A stretch of 33,790 bases of DNA from Candidatus Saccharibacteria bacterium RIFCSPHIGHO2_12_FULL_41_12 (GCA_001790445.1 MGCQ01000009.1:1-33790), one strand, 5' to 3'; counted from the stretch's first letter, positions 1-15,191 are shown. Numbers and translations: made by a program. Notes: generated by a model from the letters alone, not told the origin.

Positions 1-2
1 AA

Positions 3-392
3 GTTATTCAACCAACAGAAGACCCCAACAAAATACCTTTGGGTGAATCTGTAGCAGGGGTCAGTGATGAGATTTCTCCAGCTCAAATGTTCTTACAGGC
101 ACAGACAGAGGCCACAATCACTACACAAACTCTTGCTTTAGCTTCAATACAAGCCCCTTCACCAGAGGCAAATGAACCTCTTGTTTTGGGCATTAATAAT
201 CCTCAGACAAGCTCGAACATAAGTAATAGCTTTAATAATAATGCACCCACTAAAGATAAAGTTCAGAAAATAAGCACACCAGACACAAAACAGAATTATT
301 ATATGCTAGTGCTTATTCCCCCAATTGGTATACTATTATTAATTGCAATTAAATTGATAAGGGTCAGACTGTATGCCAAAGAAAAAAAGTAA
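3..392 (+). CDS. Hypothetical protein, 5'-truncated by window edge, C-terminal transmembrane helix
   Basis: The frame is open from base 3 through the listed TTG start at 39. The C-terminus has a hydrophobic helix (YYMLVLIPPIGILLLIAIKLI) followed by basic residues. Confidence 0.6.
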   Translation, partial: VIQPTEDPNKIPLGESVAGVSDEISPAQMFLQAQTEATITTQTLALASIQAPSPEANEPLVLGINNPQTSSNISNSFNNNAPTKDKVQKISTPDTKQNYYMLVLIPPIGILLLIAIKLIRVRLYAKEKK

Positions 393-915
393 TAAAAAGA
401 GTAAATCTTATAGTCAATCTTGGTTAATTAAATTATCTATATTTATTATTTTGCTAATAATATTAAAAATAACAGTAGGTTATATTGCTACGATCAGAGA
501 TAAAGCAAACTTCAAAAAAATAGAAAAAGATGTATTAACAGTTCAGTCTGAGTTGCAAAAGAAAAATCCACAAATTAATACGGTTGTTAATAGATATTGT
601 GAAGAAAGAAAATTTAAGTTTGATAGTCCCGAAAAATTTTGTACAGTGAAGATTAAGTCAGAAAGATCTTACAGTGAAGAAGAGTTATTAAAAAACACAC
701 AACTTAACAATGATGCAGTAATAAATTCAGGCTTTGTTCAAACACGCCAACCTGACTACAAAAACATTTTTTATACTGGTTCTGTCGAGAAGAAAAGCAA
801 TGGCGCATCATGTAGACTTGATTATGACTCAGATCTATCCTCTCTCAAGGAGAAAGTAGACAAGTATTACTTTAGCTTTTCTTGCACAAGAAAAGTACAC
901 AAATTTATATACTGA
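373..915 (+). CDS. Hypothetical membrane-anchored protein, N-terminal TM, Cys-containing extracytoplasmic domain
   Basis: 180-aa ORF overlapping the upstream ORF by 20 nt. Lys-rich N-terminus followed by a hydrophobic helix. Confidence 0.7.
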   Translation: MPKKKSNKKSKSYSQSWLIKLSIFIILLIILKITVGYIATIRDKANFKKIEKDVLTVQSELQKKNPQINTVVNRYCEERKFKFDSPEKFCTVKIKSERSYSEEELLKNTQLNNDAVINSGFVQTRQPDYKNIFYTGSVEKKSNGASCRLDYDSDLSSLKEKVDKYYFSFSCTRKVHKFIY

Positions 916-2788: not shown

Positions 2789-3100
2789 ATGACATATCAG
2801 ACCAAAGAATCAGAATTAATTAGTGTACAACAGATCAGAGATGATCTAAATGGTTTTGTTGATGGGCTGGCAGAAGGAAAGAAATACACAATACTTCGCA
2901 GATCAAAAAAAATTGTCTCCGTCGCACGTGAGACAAATAAAAAACCAGAAAGCCATGCACCGGGCAGCCACGAATCTATAATGAGCTCGCTAGATCTTGC
3001 TTCTCAGGCCAGAAAGCAGGCAAAAGTTAGCCTAGATCCTAAAAAATCATACAAAGAGCTCTATTATGAAGATAAGGCCAAGCAATATGGTCTATCTTGA
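2789..3100 (+). CDS. Antitoxin (Phd/YefM-like candidate)
   Basis: 103-aa ORF with N-terminal 'ISVQQIRDDLNGFVDGLAEGKKYTILRRSKKIVSVAR', followed by an overlapping PIN-domain gene. Confidence 0.75.
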   Translation: MTYQTKESELISVQQIRDDLNGFVDGLAEGKKYTILRRSKKIVSVARETNKKPESHAPGSHESIMSSLDLASQARKQAKVSLDPKKSYKELYYEDKAKQYGLS

Positions 3101-3458
3101 TGCGAATATTCTGATCGAAATAGCCCTAGGTCGCAGCAGGTATAAGAAAATTGAAGAGTTGCTGTCTGTTCAAAGCAACACAGCTCTCAGCATACTCAGC
3201 GTTCATTTGTTGATATATTTTGGTTTAAAATCCGGGATAGACATAAAACTCCTTGAAGCCATAGCTGAAAAACATCAGATACTGGACGTAACATATGATG
3301 ACTATTTGTGGGCAAAGAAGAACTGCGTTAATAATGACTTTGAAGACGCCCTGCAGGTGGCCTGTGCTATTAGGAACGGAGCAACAAAGATCCTGACAAT
3401 TGACAGAGATATGGTAAAAAATTATGGGGATGTACTGAATTTCGAACTGATTAGGTAG
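3087..3458 (+). CDS. PIN-domain toxin (VapC-like)
   Basis: MVYLDANILIEIALG start, central acidic 'DFEDALQVACAIRNGATKILTIDRDM' typical of PIN nucleases. Start reassigned from 3066 to the ATG at 3087. Confidence 0.85.
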   Translation: MVYLDANILIEIALGRSRYKKIEELLSVQSNTALSILSVHLLIYFGLKSGIDIKLLEAIAEKHQILDVTYDDYLWAKKNCVNNDFEDALQVACAIRNGATKILTIDRDMVKNYGDVLNFELIR

Positions 3459-3472
3459 CTATTCATCGTGGG

Positions 3473-3532
3473 TCTTGTGAGATAATGGGTGCAGTGATTG
3501 AGAAATTGAATAAATATTATACCTACTCCTAA
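3473..3532 (+). pseudogene. Duplicated promoter and 12-codon remnant of the 5' end of the O-antigen-ligase-like gene
   Basis: TCTTGTGAGATAATGGG is identical to 6329-6345, followed by GTG ATT GAG AAA TTG AAT AAA TAT TAT ACC TAC TCC TAA (MIEKLNKYYTYS*) versus MIEKINKYYKYA at 6349. Confidence 0.7.
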
Positions 3533-3538
3533 CGATAG

Positions 3539-3567
3539 TTGACTATTCTTACATTTTATAGTACAAT
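3539..3567 (+). promoter_or_regulatory. Promoter TTGACT-17-TACAAT for the 3577 gene
   Basis: -35 TTGACT 3539-3544, -10 TACAAT 3562-3567, ATG at 3577. Confidence 0.65.
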
Positions 3568-3576
3568 AAGCTTAAT

Positions 3577-5250
3577 ATGACTACACAAGGTGCAAATCCA
3601 GAAGAATTCCCTACACAAAGGGAAGCAGTTATTCAAGAAGTAACGCTTGAATCTCGTGCTCCAGAAATCGTAATGCCCGATAATGACATGTGGCCCATGT
3701 TGTTAGATGATGAGGTGTATCGTTTTTCTGCTACTGAACAACTTCCACAACTAGTGCAAACTTTATCTGAACCAATCTCGCCTGCAACGCAAGACCAGAT
3801 TACCAATATATTTGCTCAAAACCCCGGTCAACGACGTAAGCCATGGACATGCACAGGAGGAGAGAATGGTTCTTACACCTTCGCTACCGAAGCCGATGAG
3901 GGACAAACAGACGAAGAAGGTATGAAGTGGTTATATCCTGGTATCAACTATACTTTTGACCAAAATGGTCGTTTAATCAAAAAAGAGCACATTGAAGGTG
4001 GGTCGTCTTATGATCGGGGAAGACCAAATTATCAAGAATTTCTCACTTATGATGATGAGGGATATCTTATCCAACGTGCTACATGGGCAAAGTATAGGCA
4101 TCCTACAGTTACTGACCGTTTTGATTACAAGGTCACTGCTGATGACACCAAAAGTCCTACAAAAATGACAAGAACCATAAAAATAATGGGTGCTAGCCAA
4201 GAAAATAAAGATAGTCGTCCGATGACTGTTGACCTTGCTAATTACGAAGAATGGATTGCAAAGAATCCCAATGGGTTCAAGGTATTAACAAAAAAAGAAC
4301 TTAAGCCGCAAGCATTGCAGATAAAAGATTTCTCAGTTAGTGAGCGTAGAAAAGGCATATTATTTACTGATCCTGAACAATTAGAACACGCCCTAGTGAT
4401 GTATGGGGAAGGTAATTATCCAGCGCCAGGAGGAGAAACAGCACTTGAATTTAACGAACAAGTATTCGCAGAAAAATCTAGCCAAGCGGGTGAGTTATTT
4501 TCCCTATTTACTCGTCGTGGTGATATGGGTGAATTTGTACAAGCTAGAATAATGAACAACGTACAAACGAAATGGGAAGCAGTTCAAAAATCCAGAAAAT
4601 CTGACGTGTGCGAAAGTGTGCACTTTTCTTTTGATTATGATGGGGCCGGACATTTTCATAAAAGTTCTGGCGAAGTAGAAATTACTAAAAATGGTCTCGA
4701 ACTGACACTTGGCGCAGCTTATGTTGGCGACAAGGTAGAAGACCAGTTAGCAAGTGCTATGCGTAAAAAGCGCGGGCTGCGTTCTGCAACTATAGAAATT
4801 CCTGTGAATCAAACCGAGCAAGATGGATACTTCATGGTAGATGTGAGAGCAGTGTGTGATCAGCTTGGGATACTTGTCACAGATGAAGATATAAGTAATT
4901 ATTTACAAAAATACGCAGACTCTAGTCTAACTGACCGTATCGAAAGACAGAATGGGGGACAACCAACGCTCTGGCAAGATGATAAAACTGGGGTTAGTGT
5001 GATGCTGGTTACGCAAAGAATAGATCAAGACCTCAGGGTAGGTTTAGATGAACTTTTTGACCACGATAGGACGTCAATATGGGGTCCACTACCAAAAGAG
5101 ATCCTGCACATAAGTGATGACAAAAGAAACACACCACGAATTAGGGTGACTGTAAAACCTTCTGGAGATCCTTTTGACGAGGAGACTACCAAACGAACTG
5201 ACGAAATTGTGGGAGATTACATGAGCTGGCTTGAACAAGCAACTGCTTAA
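3577..5250 (+). CDS. Hypothetical protein, no recognised family
   Basis: 557-aa ORF with well-formed promoter; no signal peptide or TM seen. Confidence 0.85.
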   Translation: MTTQGANPEEFPTQREAVIQEVTLESRAPEIVMPDNDMWPMLLDDEVYRFSATEQLPQLVQTLSEPISPATQDQITNIFAQNPGQRRKPWTCTGGENGSYTFATEADEGQTDEEGMKWLYPGINYTFDQNGRLIKKEHIEGGSSYDRGRPNYQEFLTYDDEGYLIQRATWAKYRHPTVTDRFDYKVTADDTKSPTKMTRTIKIMGASQENKDSRPMTVDLANYEEWIAKNPNGFKVLTKKELKPQALQIKDFSVSERRKGILFTDPEQLEHALVMYGEGNYPAPGGETALEFNEQVFAEKSSQAGELFSLFTRRGDMGEFVQARIMNNVQTKWEAVQKSRKSDVCESVHFSFDYDGAGHFHKSSGEVEITKNGLELTLGAAYVGDKVEDQLASAMRKKRGLRSATIEIPVNQTEQDGYFMVDVRAVCDQLGILVTDEDISNYLQKYADSSLTDRIERQNGGQPTLWQDDKTGVSVMLVTQRIDQDLRVGLDELFDHDRTSIWGPLPKEILHISDDKRNTPRIRVTVKPSGDPFDEETTKRTDEIVGDYMSWLEQATA

Positions 5251-5360
5251 AAACTAGCAAGTTTATTTATTGATAGATTCTACAAAACAACGCAGAGAAC
5301 CAATCTTGTGAGACAGGTGGATTTTATAGGGCAAAAACTAGCAAGGTTATTATATTGATC
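5249..5360 (+). repeat. Pair of ~28-bp imperfect direct repeats (AAAAACTAGCAAG...)
   Basis: 5249-5276 aaaaactagcaagtttatttattgatag and 5333-5360 aaaaactagcaaggttattatattgatc, 84 bp apart. The second copy carries the candidate -35 TTGATC of the next gene. Confidence 0.75.
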
Positions 5361-5389
5361 AATTAACAACAATGTGATAACATAGCGTA

Positions 5390-6286
5390 ATGACAGGAGA
5401 ACGTGGTTTTGAAACAAGTGGTGGCTCAGCACCAGCAGAGATCCAGCCCGCAAATGGGAGGACTGTACATGAGTTGTATCAAAGAATACTCGAGCTAGAA
5501 CCAAAAGAAGCCGGTGTGGCAGAAGTTTTTCTTATCCCAGGAGATGACAGGCGCCTTGTTTTAGACGAGACAACTGAAAGGACGCAACATTTAGTAAATG
5601 CCCCTGCTGCTATAACACTAATTGACTCCGAACAAAATGAAACCCGCTACGTGATTACCCCTATGTGGCGCAGTAAAGTTATTTCCCGAAAGAGCGTTTC
5701 ACCAGATGGGGAATCTCAAACACAAAGGATAGATGAAACCCCAGTTTCAGAAGAAGAAGCACAGGGTTTACTTGAGCTCATTGAAAACGCAGAGATACAA
5801 CCGGTTACGCAAGAAACCATGCAAGCTCTATGCGAATTTGCTAGGGGAGAACTAACAGGTGAAGGGGTCATTGATGGTGGCAGTTTCAGGAATCGACAGT
5901 ATAAACAAAGCACAGGTGGCGTATGGTCTGTAACTGAGTGGTCGGATTTACCACTTACAGAAGGTAGCAAAAAACAAATTTTAATTTCTCAAAGTGGGCT
6001 ATGTGTTGGGACAGACGATGGAGAAAAACCAAAGCATAGATATGTTAGCTACGCGATAACCCCTGACCCAGAGAGAGATGGTCGTCTTGAGATGAATAGA
6101 CGCACAATAGCTGACTTCGGTGCCTACTCTAATGCAGGAGGTCCCCCCGCTCTACGAGAAGATTCTCCTGTGTCAGAAAGAGAGGCACGAAAACTACTTG
6201 CAGCAGTAGCAACTGCTGAGCAAGAAGCAGTCAAAGGCGAGAGGCTCGTAATTGTTAACCTCAAAACTGGGAGATTTGTTTTCTAG
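5390..6286 (+). CDS. Hypothetical protein with two related internal segments
   Basis: 298-aa ORF. 'RYVITP...DETPVSEEEAQGLLELIENAE' and 'RYVSYAITP...EDSPVSEREARKLLAAVATAE' are similar. TTGATC-17-TAACAT ends 6 nt before the ATG. Confidence 0.8.
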   Translation: MTGERGFETSGGSAPAEIQPANGRTVHELYQRILELEPKEAGVAEVFLIPGDDRRLVLDETTERTQHLVNAPAAITLIDSEQNETRYVITPMWRSKVISRKSVSPDGESQTQRIDETPVSEEEAQGLLELIENAEIQPVTQETMQALCEFARGELTGEGVIDGGSFRNRQYKQSTGGVWSVTEWSDLPLTEGSKKQILISQSGLCVGTDDGEKPKHRYVSYAITPDPERDGRLEMNRRTIADFGAYSNAGGPPALREDSPVSEREARKLLAAVATAEQEAVKGERLVIVNLKTGRFVF

Positions 6287-6348
6287 ATAGAAAAAGATTA
6301 AAAATACAAAGAGCAGGCCAATATCTCGTCTTGTGAGATAATGGGGTG

Positions 6349-7800
6349 ATGATTGAGAAAATAAACAAATATTATAAATATGCGATGGTTGGGCTTTTTG
6401 TTTATATGCCTTTTCATATTTTTCTTAGCCAGTGGTTGAGTACTTTTACTGGCGGGCTGGACTTTTGGAAGATTGGGAAGGATGTTTTTGCTTGGTTACT
6501 TCTTATTTTTGGCTCAATTTTAGTGATCTGGGCCAAAAAAACAAACAAATTATTTTGGGTACTTTGGGGGTTATTGTTGGCATATACGGCAATTCACGCG
6601 ATCTTGTTTGTTACGACTAATCAACCGACAAAAACAGGGGTGCTGGCGATGGTTTATAACACGCGACTGATGTGGTTTGTTCTGATTGGCTACAATCTGA
6701 GCCTTTTGACCAAAAATAAGGGTGAACTAATCAAGCAATTTACCAAATATCTGCTGATTGTGTCTACAATTGTCTGCGTAGTTGGGCTGTTGCAGTGGAT
6801 TTTGCCAAAAGATATAATGACGCATTTTGGCTACTCGTTAGAGCGGGGCGTCAAGCCAGCATTTTTCATCGATGATAAGCCAGATTTGCCTAGGGTAATG
6901 TCCACCATTCGTGATCCGAATTCTCTGGGCGCATTCCTAATCTTGCCAATATTGCTACTGCTCAATCTCCTAATAAAAAACTGGACTATGGTCTCCTCAA
7001 GACAAAAACTGGCTTCTACGCCGAGATCGAGCAACCAGAATAGATTAAACCTCGAGCAACGTGTCCAGACACGCCTTACTCGGTTTTCTCAATTCTACTC
7101 TACTCGAATCAACAGCCTAAAAACACAATTTTTATCTCAAGGAGACCATGCTGACAAAAAAATGATGCTCAGCGGAATTTTGCTACTCCATTTATTAATA
7201 TTATTCCTGACATTTTCAAGAAGCGCATGGTTGGCAATGATAATAGCTGGCGGGCTGCATCTGGGGCTGACCTACAAAAAACAAATCATAAAATACGCTG
7301 TTGCCTATAAATACATAATTATAGCTTTAGTATTGATGTTTGGGCTGTTCACATTTGTCATGCGTGACCAATATATAGTCCAAAACGTTCTGCTCCATAG
7401 TGATGAAAACACCAAACTCCAAGATTCAAACTCTCTGCACGTTACCCAAATAGAAAAGGGCCTAAGTGGCATAGCAAAACAACCCCTGGGTCACGGCCCT
7501 AGCACCGCCGGTCTTGTATCCACACGTTTGCCAACGGGGGGGCTGCTAACAGAGAATTATTTCGTGCAAATTGGTTACGAAGTAGGGGGACTTGGTGTAG
7601 CAGTATTCTTGGGCTGGCTAGGCTGCCTGCTATGGCTACTACGAAAACACACAATCATAATTGTCACATTAATCGGTCTCATAGCCATGAACCTCCTCCT
7701 CCACATCTGGTCCAACGAAGCCGTCGCAGCCAGCGTATTTATATTCATCGGCCTATTACTTTACGATACCAAAAGTAAAAATCCTGCGAAAAGTTCTTAG
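6349..7800 (+). CDS. O-antigen ligase/polymerase-like polytopic membrane protein (Wzy_C-type)
   Basis: Multi-TM ORF with 'LILFLTFSRSAWLAMIIAGGLHL' and 'GHGPSTAG...ENYFVQIGYEVGGLGV', typical of the Wzy/O-antigen ligase superfamily. ATG at 6349 preferred over GTG at 6346. Confidence 0.85.
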   Translation: MIEKINKYYKYAMVGLFVYMPFHIFLSQWLSTFTGGLDFWKIGKDVFAWLLLIFGSILVIWAKKTNKLFWVLWGLLLAYTAIHAILFVTTNQPTKTGVLAMVYNTRLMWFVLIGYNLSLLTKNKGELIKQFTKYLLIVSTIVCVVGLLQWILPKDIMTHFGYSLERGVKPAFFIDDKPDLPRVMSTIRDPNSLGAFLILPILLLLNLLIKNWTMVSSRQKLASTPRSSNQNRLNLEQRVQTRLTRFSQFYSTRINSLKTQFLSQGDHADKKMMLSGILLLHLLILFLTFSRSAWLAMIIAGGLHLGLTYKKQIIKYAVAYKYIIIALVLMFGLFTFVMRDQYIVQNVLLHSDENTKLQDSNSLHVTQIEKGLSGIAKQPLGHGPSTAGLVSTRLPTGGLLTENYFVQIGYEVGGLGVAVFLGWLGCLLWLLRKHTIIIVTLIGLIAMNLLLHIWSNEAVAASVFIFIGLLLYDTKSKNPAKSS

Positions 7801-13496: not shown

Positions 13497-15191
13497 TTAG
13501 AGAGCCCCGACATTAGTGGCAATGTTGCTGAGCCATGCTTGCTGACCTGCAGCCCATGTATGAATTTCAATGCGCCCGCTGCCACTGTTTCTATATTTAA
13601 TCAAAACCAGTTCGTCGATAGCTCCGCCATAAATATTGCCTGATGTGACTTCAATGTCGTTAGGGTCAACGACGGGGTGATTAGTGGCAATGTTGCTGAG
13701 CCACGATTGCTGATTTGGCGTCCAAGTATGCGCTTCGATTCTTCCGCTACCCGTATTTCTATACTTAACAAATACAAGTTCATCTCGTATGTCACCATAA
13801 AGATTTGCTGCAATAACTCGACCATCTGCAGGGTCGATGGCAGGCTGATTAGTCGCTATGTTGGTTAACCAAGCTTGTTTATTAGGTGTCCATGTGTGAA
13901 TTTCTAACTTACCGCTACCAGTATTGCGATATTTGACGTACATAAGTTCATCACGCCCATCACCAGTAACATCGCCAGAAATTATTTCCCCGTCAGCTGG
14001 GTCAACAGCAGGCAGGTTGGTTGCTATGTTATAAACCCAACGTTGGTAAGTATCGTCCCATGTATGAACTTCAACTTTTCCACTGCCAGTATTACGATAT
14101 TTTACGAAGGTAATTTCAGATTTTGAGTCTCCGTGGACATTGGCAGAAATTATCTTTATATCTGCGGGGTTAATCGCTGGATGATTGGTCGCCACGTTAG
14201 TTACCCAACCTTGTTGATTACCCCCCCATGTATGAATTTCAATGCAGCTGGAACCAGTATTATTAGGGAGCGTTAGAGAGAAGGTGGCATTACCCCCTTC
14301 AGTGAATTGGTTAGGTATAACTCTTCCCCCAGTCGGTGTACTTGCTACATTACTAGCTCCCTTACAGGAGTAATCAATTGGTCCATAGGGGCTGCCAAAC
14401 CAATCATTGAAGAGTCGCCAGAAATTACGATTGCCATAAGCACCACAACCATCACCTGTGCCATAAAGATTTGCTAGTGCTGATGCGTTTGGTTGGTAGG
14501 GGGTATAGTTATAAAGTCCAGCTGTTGCTTGATTTTGAATATATACATTTGTGCCACCACAAGCAGCATTGGGGTTATACAACACATAACTATTGGTCCC
14601 GACAGTGTGGTTATAAGAACCAGAATCTCGTGCGTAGCGTTTAAATTGCCGAGCAGCCATGTATACTTGGTTGAAGAATCCGTAGTAAGTGGAATCACAA
14701 GCTGCTGTATCTGGACAACCATATCCAGTTGCACTGCGGTACTGAACATCAAGAGGCCAAGTATCTGTGACCAGTGACTGTTCTTTTTGGAGTAAAACTA
14801 TAAGGACTTGTGGGTTAATCCCGCAACTTTGAGCTACCCATGCAATAGTTTCGGCTGCTGTAGCACCAGAAGCAGTGATGCCATTACACAGACCAGCTTC
14901 AGGAGCTTTAGATGGAATGGAATTACGGAAGTCTTTAAGACAGATAAAAGGAGGGTTCTGACCATAACCAGCACTGTGCCACGTATCACAAACAGGCACT
15001 TTAGAATTTAAGAAAGCTTGAATTTCAGCCACTGACATTGTATCGCCACTGAAGAATTTACTGTCGTCGATAATCCGTCCAGGTTGAAATTCACTACCAG
15101 ACACTGCTCGGACTTGTTGTGATTGTATCGGCAACAGCGTAATCGCAAAAAATAATATTGCCAGCGATAAGGTAAATAAACGTTTAACCAT
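13497..15191 (-). CDS. Secreted protein: N-terminal Cys-rich globular domain plus five FG-GAP/VCBS-like repeats
   Basis: Signal peptide MVKRLFTLSLAILFFAITLLPIQSQQVRA; domain 'LIVLLQKEQSLVTDTWP...TGYGCPDTAACDSTYYGFFNQVYMAARQFKRY'; C-terminal 56-aa repeats. Confidence 0.85.
   Translation of the reverse strand: MVKRLFTLSLAILFFAITLLPIQSQQVRAVSGSEFQPGRIIDDSKFFSGDTMSVAEIQAFLNSKVPVCDTWHSAGYGQNPPFICLKDFRNSIPSKAPEAGLCNGITASGATAAETIAWVAQSCGINPQVLIVLLQKEQSLVTDTWPLDVQYRSATGYGCPDTAACDSTYYGFFNQVYMAARQFKRYARDSGSYNHTVGTNSYVLYNPNAACGGTNVYIQNQATAGLYNYTPYQPNASALANLYGTGDGCGAYGNRNFWRLFNDWFGSPYGPIDYSCKGASNVASTPTGGRVIPNQFTEGGNATFSLTLPNNTGSSCIEIHTWGGNQQGWVTNVATNHPAINPADIKIISANVHGDSKSEITFVKYRNTGSGKVEVHTWDDTYQRWVYNIATNLPAVDPADGEIISGDVTGDGRDELMYVKYRNTGSGKLEIHTWTPNKQAWLTNIATNQPAIDPADGRVIAANLYGDIRDELVFVKYRNTGSGRIEAHTWTPNQQSWLSNIATNHPVVDPNDIEVTSGNIYGGAIDELVLIKYRNSGSGRIEIHTWAAGQQAWLSNIATNVGAL
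13513..14260 (-). repeat. Tandem coding repeat, 168-bp period, five copies
   Basis: Equivalent positions at 13513, 13681, 13849, 14017 and 14185 (e.g. ttagtggcaatgttgctgagcca), each exactly 168 bp apart. Confidence 0.92.

Follow-up and report, generated by a model that had tools for sequence, protein, structure and literature searches.

A probable insertion scar at the 5' end of a wzy-like gene in a Saccharibacteria genome

A repeated gene start around two genes

In the window, the whole 33,790-nucleotide stretch of DNA analysed here, the features at the locus lie on the plus strand. An antitoxin-like gene (2789-3100) and a PIN toxin gene running to 3458, together 2789-3458, stand directly to the left of a first repeat copy (3472-3533); orf557 (3577-5250) and orf298 (5390-6286) follow, and a second repeat copy (6328-6376) leads into wzy (6349-7800), which encodes a Wzy_C or O-antigen-ligase-like membrane protein. 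The ligase-like identity proposed in an earlier note on this DNA was borne out by a match to Pfam PF04932 with 46.3 bits (E = 5e-12; curated cut-off 31.7), and wzy homologues were found in 46 of 61 genomes. The PIN assignment of the gene left of the repeat, made in the same note, also held (PF01850, E = 1.1e-8). Gene starts were assigned by inspection.

As the note had claimed, the promoter and start of wzy are present twice, flanking two genes. The copies at 3472-3521 and 6328-6376 form a sharp-edged direct repeat of 50 bp with 86% identity (E = 6.9e-10 across the whole 856-kb genome), and these are its only two copies in that genome. The identical stretch GTCTTGTGAGATAATGGG covers 18 bp, at 3472-3489 and 6328-6345, one base more than the 17 bp first reported (3473-3489 and 6329-6345). 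A search of the 856 kb with the 17-mer, allowing three mismatches, returned one further, weak match, and shuffled sequence of the same contig contained no comparable repeat. A candidate third copy at 5305 was rejected, as 16% of shuffles scored as well.

The repeat comprises an extended -10 promoter element, TGAGATAAT, and the first wzy codons. In the right copy, which holds the working wzy promoter, the element ends at 6342 and the ATG at 6349, opening the intact start MIEKINKYYKYA, lies seven bases on; this ATG is thus the expected +1, and the wzy message is probably leaderless, judging from the motif. Since the duplicated part includes the promoter as well as the start, wzy has retained a promoter of its own. 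In the left copy, TGAGATAAT occupies 3478-3486, and a GTG at 3494 opens the 12 codons VIEKLNKYYTYS, closed by a TAA stop, while the likeness to the wzy start ceases at 3521. This promoter points into orf557 and, by its motif, may add to orf557 transcription; the motif match also makes it possibly a decoy promoter. The two copies are 14% divergent. Five of nine differences at wzy fall at third codon positions (P = 0.14), as do 15 of 25 when three loci are pooled (P = 0.006). The left copy is a gene start ending after 12 codons. Its description as decayed in the earlier note is unproven, since such a third-position lean would be seen between two alleles that had diverged as coding sequence.

A -10-like hexamer lies about 7-10 bases upstream of most genes in the window (starts at 974, 2789, 3577, 5390 and 6349), and leaderless messages may accordingly be widespread in the genome.

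The enclosed piece starts with a promoter-like element of orf557, TTGACT-17-TACAAT (3539-3567, a consensus match only), beginning 17 bp past the left-copy end; a similar element precedes a 60% paralogue of orf557 on contig C7. Apart from that paralogue, orf557 has relatives in just two other genomes among 393 searched in the order, and for orf298 the sole relative, a 26-29% paralogue, sits at the end of contig C8. Neither gene matched a family above its cut-off or a recombinase, and nothing suggests that they are self-moving. Single-sequence models reached pLDDT values of 35-36, unusable for fold-based function. A phage origin was rejected, there being no relatives on viral contigs and no PHROGs matches. 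An imperfect tandem duplication (5249-5382) lies upstream of orf298, its units starting at 5249 and 5333, 84 bp apart with no insert; its score of 22 was reached by 0 of 1000 shuffles. Additionally, orf298 and its paralogue share an almost identical promoter of about 36 bp (window 5354-5389 and L040:3275-3310, minus strand) despite strong protein divergence, a hint that the two are regulated alike. A large serine recombinase gene (9850-11373 of L039) is found some 2.3 kb from the orf557 paralogue on C7 (L039:5920-7593), and the orf557 homologue of another genome (G104, L045) adjoins two tRNA-Met genes.

The gap upstream of wzy in relatives

The genome is that of a Saccharibacterium, the label borne by nearly every relative found in a collection of named genomes. 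In relatives across the order, all of them distant, the wzy start is single and usually lies 14-70 bp from a divergent glycosyltransferase gene; a second wzy start was absent from every relative tested. A head-to-head pairing of the group-1 glycosyltransferase gene (GT1) with wzy was seen in 29 distinct relatives, 16 of which have a gap of 14-70 bp. In the present genome, the left end of contig C8 carries GT1, which faces away, and wzy is placed close to the left end of C9. A frame resembling an SGNH/GDSL hydrolase continues past the C8 end (L040:1-1708), the window starts with an open frame resembling the membrane tail of an SGNH-type protein, with no significant sequence match, and the gene at 373-915 is related to a small neighbour of the SGNH gene in relatives (E = 1.7e-8). 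From the frame on C8 and the tail and neighbour gene within window positions 1-915, the left ends of C8 and C9 very probably adjoin, and we infer that the short gap between GT1 and wzy has widened in this genome to about 10 kb or more.

The antitoxin-like/PIN pair probably entered this gap before orf557 and orf298 did. In other lineages the gap is occupied by unrelated toxin-antitoxin pairs; the orf557/orf298 insert is one piece of a growing pile. We rejected promoter duplication as a general rule at this gap, since 13 of 14 inserted GT1-wzy gaps of relatives lack a duplicated start. In the exception (G010), a 51-nt, largely palindromic direct repeat (L049:4449-4499 and 7101-7151) flanks 2.65 kb of the gap. 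It occurs at two places in that genome and no more, and may represent an operator instead of a scar.

Repeat-flanked inserts at other loci

A genome scan for two-copy direct repeats gave nine loci with repeat-flanked inserts, including wzy, with repeats of 35-100 bp. On C8, the PrgI start is repeated around toxin-antitoxin genes (24297/25943; 54 bp, 100%), with a nested repeat of 99 bp at the same locus, and the RNase J 3' end around a 237-aa gene (101425/102243; 60 bp, 100%). On C7, the promoter and start of an EamA-like gene flank a 556-aa YDG/repeat protein (22794/24980; 100 bp, 88%), further repeats enclose a cation-efflux gene (26739/28049) and an HTH-Fic gene (28021/29276), and the 3' end of a 371-aa gene is repeated around a 142-aa gene (129788/130428). 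On C1, tRNA-Asn sequence is repeated around a KaiC-like gene and its neighbour (125588/128329). RNase J and EamA were named by inspection, PrgI and the cargo by family scan.

All 11 two-copy repeats in this genome were direct and none inverted; one is the pair of an apparent diversity-generating retroelement and two share a tRNA locus, leaving the nine insert loci. Under the same settings, with 400 kb sampled from each, three relatives had one direct and no inverted repeat apiece (3 versus 0 in total), and shuffled sequence had no two-copy repeats. Among scattered repeats, half would be inverted. The repeats of different loci are unrelated in sequence, each with two copies in the genome, and share no att core. 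Common insert ends were not found among the inserts of this genome, nor were terminal inverted repeats (the wzy insert scored 7, reached by 60% of shuffles), and the scanned insert genes included no integrase, recombinase, IS/transposase or restriction-modification family. The wzy scar is not a local accident, as the same architecture recurs.

Two of these sites could be compared in empty and occupied form. At RNase J, three relatives (G003, G037 and G040) lack the 237-aa gene and have the next gene close by; past the right copy, the sequence corresponds to the promoter region that natively lies downstream in G003. The start of PrgI, a type IV secretion gene, was surveyed at 29 loci whose upstream sequence could be used. 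In three lineages (the present genome, G037 and G055) it is duplicated 0.8-1.6 kb upstream, and the duplications enclose different toxin-antitoxin pairs. The G037 insert, flanked by a 53-bp repeat, holds a PhdYefM-like antitoxin and a PIN gene, and that of G055 a PIN-like toxin, identified by inspection, with an antitoxin-like frame upstream. The present locus, reaching 1.5 kb upstream in this survey, gave a partial copy, and the full 54-bp copy came from the genome scan. The PrgI start is single at the other 26 loci, often 5-50 bp past the upstream gene. The displaced PrgI stubs carry a nonsense codon in G037 and have lost the ATG in G055.

Further repeat-like features were noted in passing. 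A diversity-generating retroelement look-alike lies at L103:12462-15341 (C8 92462-95341), with repeats at 13514-13627 and 13927-14040 that differ where the second copy has adenines; an accessory-like frame comes next, and after it a reverse-transcriptase-like gene. A truncated tRNA-like copy precedes an apparently complete gene by 85 bp (L109:3191-3238 and 3276-3321) and is a possible scar without an insert. Related frames of about 60 aa (FEEW..PY..YG.VNTAEEK) stand directly upstream of the PrgI start (L100:4350-4529, minus strand) and the GT1 start (L040:3349-3537, plus strand); their last bases, GGTGTGTAG, are almost the same and fall immediately ahead of the start codon, and the frames are possibly a small element inserting at gene starts.

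Origin of the scar and comparison with known systems

We consider it likely that an insertion of about 2.8 kb, carrying orf557 and orf298, took place at the wzy 5' end and doubled a target of about 50 bp. The incoming piece would have arrived by competence and been joined via offset breaks with fill-in, or through a single crossover over short homology. The target, from the promoter to about codon 10-12, would thereby have come to flank the insert on either side, with wzy retaining an intact promoter and start and the original start remaining upstream as a 12-codon stub; the locus would once have been single-copy in its own lineage. An insertion beside the glycan gene that left a junction scar, as the earlier note had suggested, is the best-supported account, given the single wzy start in relatives, the sharp edges and the same architecture elsewhere. 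Weighing against it, the copies are 14% divergent with a third-position lean that would also suit donor and recipient alleles, and 13 of 14 inserted GT1-wzy gaps of relatives lack such a duplication. Com-dependent natural transformation has been shown experimentally in Saccharibacteria (PMC10633639), which makes DNA uptake plausible under either of two versions of this model. One, in which capture at offset breaks or replication repair copies the target, remains and fits the 100% scars and decaying stubs. The other, in which donor and recipient alleles recombine over short homology, also remains and fits the third-position lean and the alternative C-terminus at C7 129788. Both may be at work.

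It is possible, if somewhat doubtful, that DNA from a related strain brought in the two genes together with its own wzy start, the left copy being the resident and the right copy the donor allele. With the same reservation, the donor DNA would have recombined homologously on the wzy side and been closed by an illegitimate join or a single circle crossover inside the resident wzy start. The pooled third-position differences, the displaced copy at C7 129788/130428 with its own in-frame C-terminus and stop, and the natural transformability of Saccharibacteria (PMC10633639) speak for such an exchange; however, the copies at two of the genome's scars are 100% identical, the PrgI stubs of G037 and G055 show plain decay, and wzy taken alone gives P = 0.14. 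Alternatively, the wzy promoter and start could first have undergone a short tandem duplication, both genes entering between the copies later. This has a counterpart in the insert-free duplication before orf298, but it would not account for the finding that almost every short repeat with two copies in the genome surrounds an insert, and we regard this order of events as unlikely.

An integrase acting in trans could have placed a small island that rebuilds the 5' end of the gene through its att site, consistent with the 18-bp identical core, the intact target gene and the serine recombinase near the C7 paralogue of orf557. Since the repeats differ between loci, one recombinase cannot serve all of them, and no recombinase was found among the insert genes, so this route appears quite improbable. 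Still more improbable is an assembly artefact in which two strain variants of the wzy start were joined in series: the genome, in 9 contigs, looks like a metagenome assembly, but series joining at non-overlapping points is not a usual assembler error, and the same architecture is seen in the independent assemblies G037, G055, G003 and G040, of which G040 consists of a single contig. Least probable of all is selection on the left copy as a leader peptide or second promoter. It retains a perfect extended -10 promoter pointing at orf557, but RNA structure was rejected, as the copy has no stable fold and is less stable than shuffles (z = +1.9), and the second start appears in no relative tested.

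The wzy scar is modest in itself, and its recurrence is the interesting part. Repeat-scarred insertion looks like a recurrent route of gene gain for these tiny bacteria, reduced-genome epibionts in which lineage-specific gene gain is poorly known. The scars are a signature readable from sequence that marks cargo, allows rough dating and shows how an insertion spares its target. At somewhat less than even confidence, we propose a recurrent, integrase-free gene capture in Saccharibacteria, in which toxin-antitoxin or orphan cassettes enter at gene ends with target duplications of 35-100 bp and some targets, such as the PrgI start, are hit independently in different families. If true, important operons could gain addictive cargo without gene loss. 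The PrgI start, where the toxin-antitoxin module differs between three lineages, makes it possible to test directly how such genes are gained. A literature search of incomplete coverage for such insertions in Saccharibacteria returned nothing relevant.

Some integrative islands, SXT at prfC among them, rebuild the 5' end of the gene they enter. The insertion proposed at wzy is likewise at a 5' end, with the gene keeping promoter and start and the displaced start on the other side, but there is no integrase and no common core, and the inserts measure just 0.5-2.8 kb. IS elements and transposons also leave a direct target repeat around the insert; the duplications of IS5 and IS1 are 4-10 bp (PMC3031569), whereas the present repeats are far longer and the inserts of this genome have no terminal inverted repeats and no transposase. 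The architecture matches insertion with long target duplication (ILTD) as described for restriction-modification genes of Helicobacter pylori (Nobusato et al. 2000, Gene 259:99, as described in PMC1643837, PMC3031569 and PMC3874152). Both involve a long, variable direct target duplication, ranging from tens of bp up to about 100 (PMC3874152 gives 'in the order of 100 bp'; here 50 bp at wzy and 35-100 bp elsewhere), a one-copy empty site in relatives (here RNase J and PrgI) and a naturally competent host. The differences are that the cargo here consists of toxin-antitoxin, Fic, transporter and orphan genes instead of restriction-modification genes, with which ILTD is 'frequently associated' in those accounts, an association and not clearly a requirement; that some targets (the PrgI start) are hit in several families; and that the phylum is another and many copies are quite diverged. 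Collectively, these comparisons would extend the Helicobacter phenomenon to a distant phylum, and, as both are naturally competent, the parallel hints at transformation as a common cause.
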